20,964 nt of DNA. Source: a virus. The notes under the pieces are model-generated. The model was given only the letters and a program-made list of their open reading frames with translations, made no database searches and was not told where the DNA came from. Shown piece after piece: positions 2,321-8,914 of this stretch. The DNA is taken from IMG/VR virus record IMGVR_UViG_3300009436_000139, positions 1-20,964 of that record. One strand, 5' to 3'. Each line of letters opens with the position of its first letter. The first letter of the stretch is position 1. Position numbers and translations under genes: made by a program.

Positions 2321-5300
2321 CTATAAATATCTAATTGATGAAAATCCACCTAATTTTGTGATATCTATTATTTGGTCAACCATATCCCTAGTTTTATCTA
2401 TGTGTGAAATCGTAACTATGAAATCAAATTGATTCTTTAGATAATCAAATAATAAATATAGAGAATTAAAGTTATCCGTATCTAACGAACCAAAACCTTC
2501 ATCAATTGCAATAAAGTTTGGACGTGGTAAGTTTGATACATTTACCAACGCAGTTCTGATTGCTACAGATGAAATAAACTTCTCCATTCCACTAGTCAAC
2601 TCTAATGGCCAAAACTCTTCTGTTCCATATGCTATATATGAATTTATGTTTTTACCATCTGTATTTAAAATTATTTGAAAATCTACAATTGGTTGTAATA
2701 TATTATTTATCTCAACTTCTAACTTAGGAAGTATCTCTGAGATTAATTGATATGGTATTCCATCTCTTCTAACACATTGTAAGTAATATTCATATCCTTC
2801 ATACTTTTGTTCCATTGATTCTAACTTATCAATAGAATCATTTACAGTTTGAATCACATTCTCTGAGATTCTAATATCACCAACCACATTAGTTATGTCG
2901 TTATGTAAGGCTGACATATCAGTTTCTAAATTATCTAAAGTTTCCTTTGCTATATCAATATGTTGTTGTATCTTTATATTATGCTTTACTGATGCTTCTT
3001 GTTCAAAGGATTTATTTATATTATCTTCAGTTGAAACTAATTTACTTTTTAACTCCGATAATTCTAAGTTACAAGATTTGTTAGTTAGTTCTAACTTTTC
3101 TATTTGATTTTTTAAAGTATCACATTCATCTTTTAAATCCTTAACAGTTAGTAGTACATCTTTAACATCAAACTTATACATATCAGATTTCAAATCAACT
3201 ATTTCTTCAGATAATCGTTTTGATTTGGAAGTTAGTTTAATTATATCATCTGATAATGTTTTTGATTGTTTAGCAAATGGGGTGTTTTGATTCTTTACAC
3301 AATGTTCACAATCATCATCAAATGATAATGAACCAATACCATCTAAGTGTTCTTGCTTATGTTCAATATCTGTATTCAAACTATCTAACGATGATGTTAT
3401 TTCTTCTAACCGATTAACATATGCTTGGTATTTTAAATGACTTTCTTGTAACTTAGGTAAATCATATGTTGAATAGTTAGATTCACATTTTTCTAAAGTA
3501 TCTTTGAACGATTCTAAATTATTAACATAACCATCACACTCATTAGATTTATCTGAAATTTGTTTTTTGAGTTTATCTTTAAGTTCCTTTAACGAATCAA
3601 TATCTATTATTGTATCATCTACAGTTTTTAAATCAGATACTAAACTATCCTTTCGTTCTCTTAAAACACTTTGAGTATCTTTAAATTTAGATAACTCATT
3701 TTTTTGTTTGATTAATACCTTTTCATTCTTTTGTAAATCCTCTTTTGCCTCTACTAACTTATCAGTAAAGTTTTGATTCTTATAATCTTTTAGCAAAGCG
3801 CTTAACTCCCTAATCTCATCATTAGCTATCTGATACAATTCTTCAAATACATTCATATCTAAGAATTGAGCAAGAAGTTCTTTCTTTTCTCTTTGAGATT
3901 TTTCAATGAACCCCCCACTATTAGATTGGTTAGACATTGCTGTAAGGATGAAATCATCATACGAACCAACATACTGTCTAATTATAGAGTTTGTATCTCT
4001 ACGTTCTTCACCATTTAATGAATGCTCTACTCCATCTACAATACAATAAAAGTTTACATCAACCTTTACAGTTCCCCTTTTTGGTGATTTCTTACCAACT
4101 CGTTCTATAAAGTAATCAACACCATTAATCTCAAAGTTGAACTTACAATCAAATTTAGATTTAGAATAGTTTAATACATCCAATGCTTTAGTTGTACGAG
4201 AACATCTATCAAATAAACAAAACGATAGTGCATCCCATAGTGATGATTTACCACTAGCGTTTGGAGCGAAGATTCCGTAAGCACCTTTCATTTGTGAGAA
4301 ATCAACTATGTTGTTTGTACCATATGAAAACATATTAGAAAACTCAAATGTTTTTGGCTTCCATATAATATTCTTCATACCCTTTACACTACCCAATTTG
4401 TTGTTTATATCTTGGTTAATAGTTCGTATAACTTCCATTTGTTCATTACCAATGATATACTTATCTGATAGGTATGATTCTAACATTTGGTTTTGGAATC
4501 CAATATCTCTAACATTTTGTAATGTAATATCAGAATTACCATTGGAATCTTTTGTATCTGATAATACTTTTTGAATTGTTAATTCCTGCACCTTCTTACC
4601 TGTCTTAATCTCTGATATGATTTTCTTTAGTTGAGATTGTGATGTATCCTTAACTCTAATTCTCATACGAGGTTTGTTAGGAATGGTTGGAGTACCAATC
4701 ACCTTACCATCTTCTACATCTATAGTTACATACCCATAATCGTTATGAATTGGAACAAACTCTGATTCTTTTGTATCAACATCCCAAACTAATATCCCAT
4801 GCTCAGGGTATTTAGCTTCAGCATGATTTTGCATAATCGTAGACCCACAATATTTAATCGTACCCTCATCGTTTAGTGATTGATTTGGTACGTGAATATC
4901 TCCCAATAGAACTAAATCGTATCCATCGAATGAATCTACCTTTACGTTTTTATTCTCTAATTGGAATCCGTATTCTGTTTTTACCTTATCAACAGGAGCA
5001 TGATATAGTGCAATCTTATAATCACCATGCACCTCTTCAGATGGAATAATCTCCTTAGATTCTCCGAAAACCGATGAGTGTGAAAAGGAAATTCCACCCA
5101 TCTTCCATACCCCATCATCCTTCATATAATGAAGATTTGAATGGTTTAGTGCATTTACGATTGGTGATAACGCATCTAATCGAGATGGGTTATTTAGGTT
5201 AGCATCGTGATTACCTGGTATCAGAATAGTTGGTAACATATCTGATAAGTTCTTTAGAAATGTTTGTGTCATCTCTATAACTTCAGGTGTCATATCCGTT

Positions 5301-5491
5301 TTTGCGTGAACAATATCCCCACACAGAACGATAACACTATCATCAGTTTTGGTGGTTTTTATGTACTCATAAAGGTTTTCGAATACTTCTCTATACTCTT
5401 TATGTCTTTGTAAATTTCTGATATGTACATCAGCTATGTGGTAAATCTTTTTGATTTGACCATCATACTTAATTCGTTTTGATTTTATCAT
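2321..5491 (-). CDS. Fused Mre11/Rad50 (gp47-gp46, SbcD-SbcC) recombination nuclease
   Basis: A 1056-aa single chain joins what T4 encodes as two proteins. Residues 1 to about 350 are an Mre11/SbcD-type Mn-dependent phosphodiesterase, with D21-x-H23, GD59, GNHD (93-96), H164 and GDIH (197-200). Residues of about 385-1056 are a Rad50/SbcC-type SMC ATPase. This part has a Walker A in APNASGKSS (K415), long coiled coils around 560-900, a zinc hook CEHC (C728, C731), a signature near 967 (LTSGMEKF), Walker B IDEGFGSLD (D997, E998) and a TISHI switch. The complex should process DNA ends, giving 3' single strands for recombination-dependent replication and possibly degrading host DNA. Its ATG overlaps the TGA of the primase's second frame (ATGA), which suggests translational coupling; no well-spaced Shine-Dalgarno is seen. 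All motifs appear intact. Confidence 0.95.
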   Translation of the reverse strand: MIKSKRIKYDGQIKKIYHIADVHIRNLQRHKEYREVFENLYEYIKTTKTDDSVIVLCGDIVHAKTDMTPEVIEMTQTFLKNLSDMLPTILIPGNHDANLNNPSRLDALSPIVNALNHSNLHYMKDDGVWKMGGISFSHSSVFGESKEIIPSEEVHGDYKIALYHAPVDKVKTEYGFQLENKNVKVDSFDGYDLVLLGDIHVPNQSLNDEGTIKYCGSTIMQNHAEAKYPEHGILVWDVDTKESEFVPIHNDYGYVTIDVEDGKVIGTPTIPNKPRMRIRVKDTSQSQLKKIISEIKTGKKVQELTIQKVLSDTKDSNGNSDITLQNVRDIGFQNQMLESYLSDKYIIGNEQMEVIRTINQDINNKLGSVKGMKNIIWKPKTFEFSNMFSYGTNNIVDFSQMKGAYGIFAPNASGKSSLWDALSFCLFDRCSRTTKALDVLNYSKSKFDCKFNFEINGVDYFIERVGKKSPKRGTVKVDVNFYCIVDGVEHSLNGEERRDTNSIIRQYVGSYDDFILTAMSNQSNSGGFIEKSQREKKELLAQFLDMNVFEELYQIANDEIRELSALLKDYKNQNFTDKLVEAKEDLQKNEKVLIKQKNELSKFKDTQSVLRERKDSLVSDLKTVDDTIIDIDSLKELKDKLKKQISDKSNECDGYVNNLESFKDTLEKCESNYSTYDLPKLQESHLKYQAYVNRLEEITSSLDSLNTDIEHKQEHLDGIGSLSFDDDCEHCVKNQNTPFAKQSKTLSDDIIKLTSKSKRLSEEIVDLKSDMYKFDVKDVLLTVKDLKDECDTLKNQIEKLELTNKSCNLELSELKSKLVSTEDNINKSFEQEASVKHNIKIQQHIDIAKETLDNLETDMSALHNDITNVVGDIRISENVIQTVNDSIDKLESMEQKYEGYEYYLQCVRRDGIPYQLISEILPKLEVEINNILQPIVDFQIILNTDGKNINSYIAYGTEEFWPLELTSGMEKFISSVAIRTALVNVSNLPRPNFIAIDEGFGSLDTDNFNSLYLLFDYLKNQFDFIVTISHIDKTRDMVDQIIDITKLGGFSSIRYL

Positions 5492-5634
5492 ACACCTAAT
5501 AACTTATACTCCATTAACTTTCTTAGTGAAAGTAATTCAGTATTTTTTATTTTTTCATTAATATTGTTAAAACCCATATCTGATGGGTCTGAATCGTTTA
5601 GTTCAACGATGTGAACACCCACTCCATTATTCAT
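5488..5634 (-). CDS. Displaced C-terminal part of the primase (second frame)
   Basis: This is a 48-codon frame from ATG 5634 to TGA 5488, open upstream to a stop at 5677-5679. It reads as the missing end of the Toprim primase: SESLMNNGVGV is followed by the DPSD motif and GF, as in DnaG-type proteins after the D-x-D metal site. Its TGA overlaps the ATG of the Mre11/Rad50 fusion, as expected of the authentic end of the upstream gene. It is offset by one base from the main primase frame. It is therefore more likely the tail of the primase, joined by frameshifting or split by an indel or sequence error, than an independent gene. No ribosome binding site was recognised before ATG 5634. Confidence 0.6.
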   Translation of the reverse strand: MNNGVGVHIVELNDSDPSDMGFNNINEKIKNTELLSLRKLMEYKLLGV

Positions 5635-6418
5635 AAGGGATTCTGAATCGGAGTGAGTTCTTAAAAGCGTCTGAATCTAAGGCTAGATATACACTTTTAA
5701 CACCCTTACTAATTATTTTAGTTTGTAGTTCCGTTTGTGGTGATTTACCAAACAATGGAATACTATTCATTCTAACTGCTATTGCATCAAATACTCCTTC
5801 ACATATTACAATTGGTAAATCCCAATTAACAAACATCTCAAATCCTACTACATCTTTAGATACATCTGGATTCTTATGTTTGAATGCCGTATCATAAAAA
5901 CTTCTACCTACAAAATAATTTAACATACCATTCTCATTGTAAGATGGAACTATAATTTTATGTTTGTATATTCCTTCCTCACAATACCCCATTTGGTACT
6001 TTAACACCTCTGCTGATGTTACACCCCTTCTAGTCAAATAAGATAACGCATGCTTCCTTATAACGGATGTAGAAGGTTTCCACAATGGTATATATTCTTT
6101 TGGTAGTTGAACCACCTTAGATTCTTCGGTAGTTGAATCTGTTTTGTATCTATACTTTCTTTTGAATATAGAGTTGTGTGCATCCCATACCTCTTTAGAT
6201 ACTTTAAGTTTTCTGAAAAGGGAACGGATTGATTTACCCTTCTCATCGGATATCCAACAATGCCAAGGGTTATCAGCATTTGAATTTAACTTTATGTTTA
6301 TCTCCAATTTAGGTTTATGATGATTCACAAACGGAGACCAAAACGCATAGTTATCGCCTGATGTTTTCTTAGCTTTACCTAAGACTGACTCTAATAAAGA
6401 TAGTAGCTTTTCTTCCAT
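5627..6418 (-). CDS. DnaG-like Toprim primase (frame broken near its C-terminus)
   Basis: The 263-aa frame begins MEEKLLSLLE and resembles phage DnaG-type primases, which make RNA primers for lagging-strand synthesis beside the replicative helicase. Residues 22-63 have the layout of the N-terminal zinc-binding domain (SPF, HHKPKLEI, WHCW, GKS). However, the usual CxxC pairs read S28-x-x-V31 and C54-x-x-S57, so one of four cysteines remains. The Toprim site is clear: E207-G208 and D211 in CEGVFDAIAV, then D248-x-D250 in ALDSDAFKNSL. After about residue 257 the frame turns into unrelated residues and stops at 5627. The expected continuation is in the next frame down to 5488, giving about 309 aa in total, near the size of T4 gp61. 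It lies 30 bases after the resolvase gene. It could be a functional frameshifted gene, a pseudogene or an assembly error. Confidence 0.85.
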   Translation of the reverse strand: MEEKLLSLLESVLGKAKKTSGDNYAFWSPFVNHHKPKLEINIKLNSNADNPWHCWISDEKGKSIRSLFRKLKVSKEVWDAHNSIFKRKYRYKTDSTTEESKVVQLPKEYIPLWKPSTSVIRKHALSYLTRRGVTSAEVLKYQMGYCEEGIYKHKIIVPSYNENGMLNYFVGRSFYDTAFKHKNPDVSKDVVGFEMFVNWDLPIVICEGVFDAIAVRMNSIPLFGKSPQTELQTKIISKGVKSVYLALDSDAFKNSLRFRIPYE

Positions 6419-6448: not shown

Positions 6449-6874
6449 TTATCCAAAGAATTTCTTAATTTCTTTTTCATCTATCCATTCTTGGGGTATT
6501 TCTTTCTTAGCCCATTTGAATCCGTTCTTATCACACCATTGTGCATAGGTGGTTTTAGAACCTTTGTATATTTTAGAATTTGGGGATTGTAGTACGAACC
6601 TTAAATCCATATCAGGATTCTGTTCTTTTATAAGTAAGTGTTTTTTTCTATCCTCAGGTAAGAACCATCCTTTTGATTCTATGAAGATATTGTTAGGTAA
6701 TCTAAAATCGGGTTTGTAAGTATGATTAGTTGCTGGTATTGTATATGATACTTCGTGCTCTTCATACTCACCATCAATACCTTGTGATTTAAGTTGCTCA
6801 TCTATACGAGTTTCCAACCCACTTTTATGACCTTTCATCTTTTGGATGTGAGACCAATTGCCTTTTTTATTCAT
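6449..6874 (-). CDS. T7 endonuclease I-type Holliday-junction resolvase
   Basis: A 141-aa protein that matches phage T7 endonuclease I (gp3, 149 aa) along nearly its whole length. Conserved blocks include SGLE (18-21), SYTIPATNHTYKPDF (43-57), IFIESKG (63-69), DRKKHLLIKEQNP and IPQEWI. The T7 catalytic residues have equivalents here: E21, D56, E66 and K68 of the PD-(D/E)xK nuclease fold. The T7 enzyme works as a domain-swapped dimer that cuts four-way junctions and branched DNA. Here it would resolve recombination intermediates and debranch DNA before packaging. It lies between the LamG tail gene (12-base gap) and the primase (30-base gap), so it leads the DNA-processing island. T4 itself uses the unrelated endonuclease VII (gp49). 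No clear Shine-Dalgarno is seen before the ATG. Confidence 0.93.
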   Translation of the reverse strand: MNKKGNWSHIQKMKGHKSGLETRIDEQLKSQGIDGEYEEHEVSYTIPATNHTYKPDFRLPNNIFIESKGWFLPEDRKKHLLIKEQNPDMDLRFVLQSPNSKIYKGSKTTYAQWCDKNGFKWAKKEIPQEWIDEKEIKKFFG

Positions 6875-6886
6875 AACTATTTTTTA

Positions 6887-8914
6887 TTATTTAGTGTAGG
6901 TATTATTTGTACCCCCATTACTTTGTGTATCAAATGTATTTACATTATCTATAGTAGATGGTTGATAATCACCTTGTATTAATATATCAGGTCTATCCAA
7001 CTTCCCCCAAACAAATTTACTATTACCTTGCTTATCCTTAACTTCAGTAACTGTAGCGGTTCTACCACTCATTAAAGAACCAGTACCGGGTGCTCCAAAT
7101 GCCCCATCTAAATCTAATCTAACCTTTAATGTGATATCAACATCATCTCTGTTTTGAATTGCTGATGCTAGTTTACCAATTGCTATTAAATCACCATTTG
7201 GATTATATAACCCAACTGTTGTAAAGTAGTTTTTAAAATCAGAACCAGTAACGAACCCCTTCATTATAGAACTGTTTGTATTATTATTTAGTTTTAATGT
7301 AGGGTTTTGTGATACATTAAATTCATTTGAACCAACTTCACATAATATATTTAACTCATGTAAGGTTTTAGATGATTTGTATTTTGTTAACCAACCATAT
7401 TCTGAAGAGTTAGGTACATCATCGTTTTCATTAACAACCTCATTACCATAATTCCAAATTCCACTCTGACCAGTCCATATATATCTATATTTTGGTCTTG
7501 GGTCTGATACTACCATTATCCCATGATTGTAAAATACTTCACCAACAATATCTGTTTGATATGCTGAACCTGTTATGTAATCATTGTTAGCTAACGATTT
7601 TATTTCATCAGTCGATAATGCTTTATTGTAAATACGGAACTCATCTAATGAACCACTTAATGTAGTATGTGATGATACTGCATCTTCTGCAAAACCATCG
7701 GTTAGAGTTCTACTACCCAAAACAATATCATTTTCGTTTGATATACCACGTAATGTTATAACTTCGTTACTACCACTTGTAGGTAATTCATCAGTATTTT
7801 CTTTAACACCATCTATCCATAATTCTAAAGTTTTACCAACCTTATTGAAACAAATATGATGTGCTTCCGAATCATTTATCACAGTTGTTGATAATGCCTC
7901 TACAGTAGTAATTCCATTTGATAGAGATATATTAACCTTACCCCTATCAGCCATTGCTGCCGTTTGGTTCAATACTTCTATGTTAAATGGGTACTGGGGT
8001 GTTAGTATATTTCTTCTTCTTAGAACGTGTTTTAATTTTTTATCCTGCCCATAATCTTTATGAGTCCCCCTCTTAGATACCAGTGTATTTGTTGTTGAGG
8101 ATGTTTCGGATTGTGTAGGTGGTAATTGAGCCCAAACTGATATTGAGTAATCTGTTGTTTCGAAAAAGTCGTATTGGGGTTTGTGGTCTATTCTGATATA
8201 TGAATTCGTTCCATCAAAATCAACCATAGTTCCCGATGGTAATACCGAACCACCAGTTGTCTTTATACCAGGAATATAGTTTAATTCTCTACCAACACCA
8301 TTATTTATGTATCCACTTCTATCTTCTATTACATAATCGGTTTTAGCGTATCTTGGAACTACTTCATCATTAAATCCCCAATAACCAACTAAGTTACCAA
8401 ATGGGGCATATGAGCTAGTGTCTAACCCAGTATCGTATAAGTGTCCGTGATATTCATCAGCTTTTCTATCTTTTATGATTGCCGATTCACAATCCGATGA
8501 AGTCATAGAAGTATCAACAACCTCTACACTTCCAAATTTAATACCATCACCTAATCTATTTTGTGGTATTGAGAATATCGATGCTGATGCGTATAAGTCT
8601 CTTTCAACTCTAGCCCTATGTTTAAAAAACATTTGATTGAGGCCTGACCAAACAATCTTCTGATGTTTGGATTTAAGAAACGATGTAGTATTAGAATCTT
8701 CGTTATCTAATTGGTCTGTTTCTCTATAAGCTGGTATTGATATTGATTCCGAAACATTAATCTTTTCACCATGTTGTGGGGATATACCTTTTATGACCGA
8801 AATTAATCTTGAATCACTTCGATGATTAATATCAGTAACTACCCAACGTTTGTGAGTATTGAATGGTCTTAATTGTATGCCACCCCCATTTATTGGTTTG
8901 TAAGCTGTTGCCAT
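6887..8914 (-). CDS. LamG-domain tail/virion structural protein
   Basis: The 675-aa protein has three parts. Residues 1 to about 170 are an N-terminal region that I do not recognise. Residues of about 172-440 form a LamG/concanavalin-like fold: LVGYWGFND at the start, MVDFDGTNSYIRI, YSISVWAQ, HHICFNKVGKTLELWIDG, and a closing SGSLDEFRIYNKALSTDEI helix. Residues of about 528-600 match the C-terminus of the neighbouring 352-aa protein (TTVGLYN, then LIAIGKL, then VRLDLD). LamG domains in phage tails usually bind glycans or stabilise trimers, so a surface-exposed tail or baseplate part is likely. There is no signal peptide or membrane segment. It lies 30 bases after the 352-aa gene. The start MATAYKP has no strong ribosome binding site. 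The structural role is likely; its exact location in the virion is unknown. Confidence 0.85.
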   Translation of the reverse strand: MATAYKPINGGGIQLRPFNTHKRWVVTDINHRSDSRLISVIKGISPQHGEKINVSESISIPAYRETDQLDNEDSNTTSFLKSKHQKIVWSGLNQMFFKHRARVERDLYASASIFSIPQNRLGDGIKFGSVEVVDTSMTSSDCESAIIKDRKADEYHGHLYDTGLDTSSYAPFGNLVGYWGFNDEVVPRYAKTDYVIEDRSGYINNGVGRELNYIPGIKTTGGSVLPSGTMVDFDGTNSYIRIDHKPQYDFFETTDYSISVWAQLPPTQSETSSTTNTLVSKRGTHKDYGQDKKLKHVLRRRNILTPQYPFNIEVLNQTAAMADRGKVNISLSNGITTVEALSTTVINDSEAHHICFNKVGKTLELWIDGVKENTDELPTSGSNEVITLRGISNENDIVLGSRTLTDGFAEDAVSSHTTLSGSLDEFRIYNKALSTDEIKSLANNDYITGSAYQTDIVGEVFYNHGIMVVSDPRPKYRYIWTGQSGIWNYGNEVVNENDDVPNSSEYGWLTKYKSSKTLHELNILCEVGSNEFNVSQNPTLKLNNNTNSSIMKGFVTGSDFKNYFTTVGLYNPNGDLIAIGKLASAIQNRDDVDITLKVRLDLDGAFGAPGTGSLMSGRTATVTEVKDKQGNSKFVWGKLDRPDILIQGDYQPSTIDNVNTFDTQSNGGTNNTYTK

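Follow-up and report, generated by a model that had tools for sequence, protein, structure and literature searches.

A single-chain Mre11-Rad50 (SbcD-SbcC) gene of the R555-like type in a T4-type phage lineage

The window analyzed here, i.e., the whole 20,964-base IMG/VR virus record IMGVR_UViG_3300009436_000139, carries on its minus strand an open reading frame that combines the nuclease and the ATPase of the Mre11-Rad50 complex and therefore does not follow the arrangement of T4 gp46/gp47 as separate proteins. It very probably encodes a single-chain gp46/gp47 (SbcC/SbcD, Rad50/Mre11) DNA-end-processing complex of the R555-like type, which would make 3' single strands for recombination-dependent replication. 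Fusions of Mre11 and Rad50 were described in 2011 by Yoshida, Claverie and Ogata for Mimivirus R555 and twelve further cases from bacteria, plasmids, eukaryotes, and a Bacillus phage (PMC3175470). The novelty implied by a preliminary description of this DNA thus had to be given up, since such fusions, the marine phage type included, were already published (PMC3175470). The gene is a well-delimited addition to a fusion type known since 2011, and the finding itself is ordinary for its T4-type lineage. The gene and its parts are as follows:

2321..5491, minus strand: fused SbcD-SbcC (Mre11-Rad50) gene, 1056 aa (open reading frame, Pfam, PHROGs, motifs, family conservation)
4751..5449, minus strand: calcineurin-like phosphodiesterase (Mre11/SbcD nuclease) domain, residues 15-247 (Pfam PF00149; SbcD fold match)
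4892..4903, minus strand: motif V GDIH, residues 197-200, with Asp at the usual metal-ligand His (invariant in 79/79 family members)
4565..4738, minus strand: capping domain, residues 252-309 (model secondary structure; fold match to SbcD nuclease and capping domain)
4394..4504, minus strand: helix-loop-helix (Rad50-binding) segment, residues 330-366 (model helices 330-344 and 349-366)
4364..4393, minus strand: fusion linker, residues 367-376 (coil between helix 349-366 and strand 376-385; SbcC residue 1 at 377)
3857..4363, minus strand: Rad50/SbcC N-lobe with Walker A K415 and Q-loop Q522, residues 377-545 (PF13476, motifs, fold match)
2771..3853, minus strand: coiled coil, residues 547-907 (long model helices; fastest evolving region)
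3299..3310, minus strand: zinc-hook CEHC, residues 728-731 (sequence; both C728 and C731 invariant)
2324..2770, minus strand: Rad50/SbcC C-lobe with signature TSGME, Walker B D997/E998, D-loop, and His switch, residues 908-1056 (motifs, fold match)

The frame runs from ATG to stop over 1056 codons with zero internal stops. Pfam profiles matched the protein above cut-off with Metallophos (PF00149) at residues 15-202 (2.4e-12) and also with AAA_23 (PF13476) at residues 385-590 (6.9e-12); matches of SMC_N and SbcC_Walker_B on the C-terminal part were weaker and below cut-off. The PHROGs match was phrog_77, SbcC-like (4.6e-49). An ABC head split by a coiled coil is present with Walker A (K415), Q-loop, signature (T966-S-G-M-E970), Walker B (D997/E998), and D-loop, and the CxxC zinc hook C728/C731 is placed by the model between the two long helical arms. 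Together with the structure matches, this bears out the single-frame fusion proposed in the preliminary description, now assigned to the minus strand where no strand had been given, as well as its complete SMC ATPase and its residue numbers for both the ATPase and the nuclease.

An AlphaFold2 monomer model was calculated from 45 family sequences (mean pLDDT 79, pTM 0.51). It comprises the nuclease at 15-247, the capping domain at 252-309, a disordered loop at about 310-322, and two helices at 330-344 and 349-366, followed by the first ATPase strand from residue 376 (376-385), the coiled-coil arms 547-719 and 738-907, and the C-lobe. In structure comparison, residues 10-309 fit SbcD, with Z 24.5 for S. 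aureus SbcD (7dog) over residues 14-309 and Z of about 22.5 for E. coli SbcD. Residues 377-1056 were superposed on residues 1-1044 of the SbcC/Rad50 chain 7yzo_D (Z 29.8), with E. coli SbcC residue 1 at position 377; counted from the end of helix 349-366, the linker thus amounts to about 10 residues. Consequently, the architecture of N-terminal Mre11, helix-loop-helix, short linker, and Rad50 is that of the R555 type (Yoshida 2011), for which a linker of 9-12 residues had been predicted from the distance of 28 Angstrom that separates the end of Mre11 from the start of Rad50 in the Thermotoga complex (PMC3175470). The earlier statement that the C-terminal helices of Mre11 run straight into the Rad50 N-lobe is likewise right in essence, as the modeled helices and the strand at 376 follow each other almost directly. 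At a pTM of 0.51, the modeled placement of nuclease and linker on the ATPase heads is not reliable.

The nuclease part had been credited with a complete set of phosphodiesterase motifs, which stands for most ligands and fails at two motifs. Its residues are D21/H23, G58-D59, G93-N94-H95-D96, H164, and H200, and the ligands D21, H23, D59, N94, H95, H164, and H200 are conserved in the family. Six of the seven canonical metal ligands are present. The seventh, the first His of the usual GHxH and equivalent to His206 of Pyrococcus Mre11 (PMC3175470), is Asp198 in all 79 members, motif V thus reading GDIH. Motif II reads GDIVH instead of GDxxD. GDIVH, GNHD, GDIH, the Q-loop Gln, and the LD of the D-loop are identical in 79 of 79 aligned family members. 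For Mimivirus R555, the substitutions described in the active site are GDxxD Asp to His and His206 to Asp (PMC3175470), the same two that are invariant in the window family. That the Asp motif might be exclusive to fusions was considered and rejected, because the split D12 of T5-like phages has Asp as well. Motif V is GHFH in T4 gp47, GHIH in E. coli SbcD, and GDLH in T5-like D12, the latter also carrying GDVFH at motif II. As both departures are shared by this split protein, the substitutions mark a wider phage variant and not the fusion as such. The Asp in motif V may affect the nuclease.

The fused frame is neither a chance event nor an assembly error. A scan of IMG/VR gave 33 relatives and a profile scan at least 583, the best 80 of which were used. 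An intact fused frame of 1046-1057 aa was found in 78 of the 99 loci examined, on separate contigs and at 42-95% identity; most of the others are truncated at contig ends or begin at a different start codon, besides one with an early stop (L070) and one with an insert (L028). Split relatives were absent among the 99 loci, barring L028 and LR756508, with the nuclease broken by endonuclease genes, and L070 with its early stop; as loci were ranked by their match to the fused query, true split genes could be under-sampled in this set. Nei-Gojobori dN/dS at the junction (residues 311-390) was 0.07-0.20 in six comparisons. The nuclease, with 0.04-0.09, is among the most conserved regions and the coiled coil, with 0.2-0.38, the fastest evolving. 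Because of the 78 intact frames and the purifying selection over the junction, we regard the fusion as a maintained gene and not as the result of a missing stop. Cultured phages carry it too, annotated under vague names (Mel-JY01, pT24, PTm1, MA9V-1, and PAU). A likely small indel elsewhere in the record, in the adjacent primase, and the rule of split genes in T4, T5-like, Kayvirus, and Moorella phages would fit a sequencing or assembly error that deleted a stop and thereby merged two adjacent or overlapping genes. Considering the independent contigs, the fused isolates, and the selection on the junction, this artefact was rejected and retains practically no probability. The question raised earlier, whether other phages contain SbcD-SbcC fusions, is hereby answered in the affirmative, and the relatives with a fused frame dispose of the possibility that all relatives have split genes.

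With regard to bacterial or plasmid homologs, a single scan of genome contigs returned two contigs only, one with the same phage neighborhood as the window gene and one with its downstream tail gene; the plasmid scan gave weak split or partial matches only. The fusions reported in 2011 for Clostridium kluyveri and Deferribacter (PMC3175470) were absent from the recovered matches. One contig binned with an uncultured Nitrosopelagicus genome (L125, CALBOT010000005.1) holds the fusion along with endonuclease I, primase, and tail genes; it is probably a mis-binned phage contig, otherwise a clue to the host.

The genes upstream encode a primase and a T7-type endonuclease I, then a laminin-G-like protein and other virion proteins; the downstream gene encodes a tail protein. 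The two conserved upstream neighbors are:

5492..6418, minus strand: DNA primase, open reading frame broken near 5645 (phrog_47, 4.4e-20; intact in relatives)
6449..6874, minus strand: T7-type endonuclease I (PF05367, 1.6e-54; in 92/103 loci)

Among 103 loci, the primase was found in 98, endonuclease I in 92, and the downstream tail gene in 83, with truncated contigs explaining many of the gaps. The order of primase, fusion, and tail protein, with endonuclease I upstream, holds down to about 42% identity. The primase frame of the window (263 aa) changes near its end, the window being two bases shorter than the related locus L002, and all relatives checked are intact; the break is probably a sequencing or assembly error, or else a real mutation. 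At 6887-8914 on the minus strand, a virion-type protein with a laminin-G/concanavalin-A-like domain (PF13385, residues 234-439) varies strongly between relatives and is a candidate receptor-binding or decoration protein.

A gp23 T4-type capsid gene and a RecA-type recombinase were detected in Microcystis phage Mel-JY01 and in all six related IMG/VR records tested (169-190 kb). In the complete 190-kb genome of Mel-JY01, the fusion is the only match to Metallophos (PF00149) and the only one to AAA_23 (PF13476). Likewise, the only PF13476 match in six T4-type IMG/VR records of 162-187 kb falls in the fused frame, the absence of a second Rad50-type ATPase from fragmentary records being weak evidence. 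In many T4-type phages the fusion is hence the only copy that can be detected, so that what looked in 2011 like an isolated oddity becomes the norm for one phage lineage.

Among the closest known systems is cultured Mel-JY01, whose WWT39521 ("AAA domain containing protein") shares 39% identity over 99% of the length. Primase and tail genes are arranged around it in the same order, but a GIY-YIG gene stands beside the primase in place of endonuclease I; a literature search found no paper on Mel-JY01. R555, compared by description, has in common the single chain of Mre11 then Rad50, the helix-loop-helix, and a short linker (about 10 residues here against a proposed 9-12), but it is longer (1351 aa versus 1056 aa), has a longer coiled coil, and belongs to a giant virus of amoebae instead of a T4-type phage. 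In aquatic metagenomes, its homologs reach their highest abundance in the viral fractions; GOS scaffolds bearing them carry phage primases and T7-gp3-type endonucleases (PMC3175470), flanks like those at the window gene. The jumbo phages pT24, PTm1, and MA9V-1 and Sphingomonas phage PAU (gp288) encode nuclease and ATPase parts in single frames of 1301-1326 aa, at about 24% identity, with a longer coiled coil and in another gene neighborhood. T4 gp47/gp46 and T5-type D12/D13 are the same two enzymes with the nuclease gene upstream of the ATPase gene, yet they are two separate proteins, with GHFH as motif V in T4. E. coli SbcCD (cryo-EM 6s6v, 6s85, and 7yzo) would show the same domain order if concatenated and matches in fold (Z 22-30), in contrast having separate subunits, a much longer coiled coil, and the canonical GHIH.

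The viral structures nearest to the model match it over the entire length and comprise giant-virus single chains (Tupanvirus, Harvfovirus, Yasminevirus, and Catovirus) as well as phages pT24 and PTm1; the best giant-virus match, Tupanvirus, reached 26% identity over 1320 columns, and R555 was absent among the viral structure matches listed. A tree of the nuclease and ATPase lobes (622 columns) from 26 rows, i.e., 19 fused phage proteins and seven split pairs, separated all 19 fused proteins, including the distant ones of pT24, PTm1, MA9V-1, PAU, and LR756501, from the split pairs by a branch with support 95/94; the split pairs are thinly sampled and three of them are long branches. This favors one fusion event without proving it.

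The role in replication and recombination is proposed on the basis of T4 knowledge and gene content. By analogy with SbcCD and Mre11-Rad50 structures, two fused chains would pair via their nuclease domains, with each helix-loop-helix docking in cis on the coiled-coil root of its own chain. ATP-driven engagement of the heads would open and close access of DNA ends to the Mn-dependent nuclease, and the resulting 3' single strands may be passed to a UvsX/RecA-type recombinase for recombination-dependent replication and end repair, as for T4 gp46/gp47. A 1:1 stoichiometry, as had been noted, and co-inheritance are guaranteed by the single chain; any fusion-specific effect on geometry, activity, or chemistry is hypothetical. 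With stoichiometry and cis pairing fixed, a single-chain Mre11-Rad50 offers a handy route to the seating of the nuclease on the ATPase heads.

Two other functions were weighed against this end-processing role. The invariance of GDIH and GDIVH in 79 members, unlike GHFH of T4 gp47 and GHIH of E. coli SbcD, could point to a structural or tethering machine with changed or weakened nuclease chemistry, a metal-ligand His being Asp in every member; we consider this improbable, since the other ligands are conserved in one of the most conserved regions of the protein, Asp can bind metal, and the split D12 also has GDLH. Still less weight is given to a main role in defence or counter-defence, e.g., shielding phage ends against nucleases of the host or breaking down its DNA, instead of recombination-dependent replication. 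T4 gp46/gp47 are indeed annotated as needed for host-DNA degradation too, but the neighbors here are primase, endonuclease I, and tail genes, and these genomes also encode a RecA-type recombinase. Within the end-processing reading, the stronger claim that a widespread T4-type lineage relies solely on a cis-tethered Mre11-Rad50 whose altered metal site (Asp for His in motif V) is conserved, its resection chemistry or ATP gating differing measurably from gp46/gp47, appears unlikely, though somewhat less so than either of these functions.

Different endonuclease-like genes interrupt the fused gene of two distantly related phages immediately behind motif V (GDIH), at L028:6624-7582 and L037 (LR756508):4597-5674, one NUMOD3-like with an HNH-like sequence recognized by eye, the other TnsA-like. 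A short tail of similar sequence (..EELExYLxxGW..) closes both N-terminal parts, and each C-terminal part apparently has an ATG of its own. An Rfam search for a group I intron at these inserts gave no match above chance. As far as the sequences suggest, the enzyme may be made there as two pieces cut through the active site, or be spliced. Listeria phage LMTA-57 (L131:3417-6446) has one 1009-aa frame annotated as "recombination exonuclease" where phage P100 has three frames in the same interval (L132:3417-6448), which would mean either that the genes fused independently there or that one of the two records contains frame errors.
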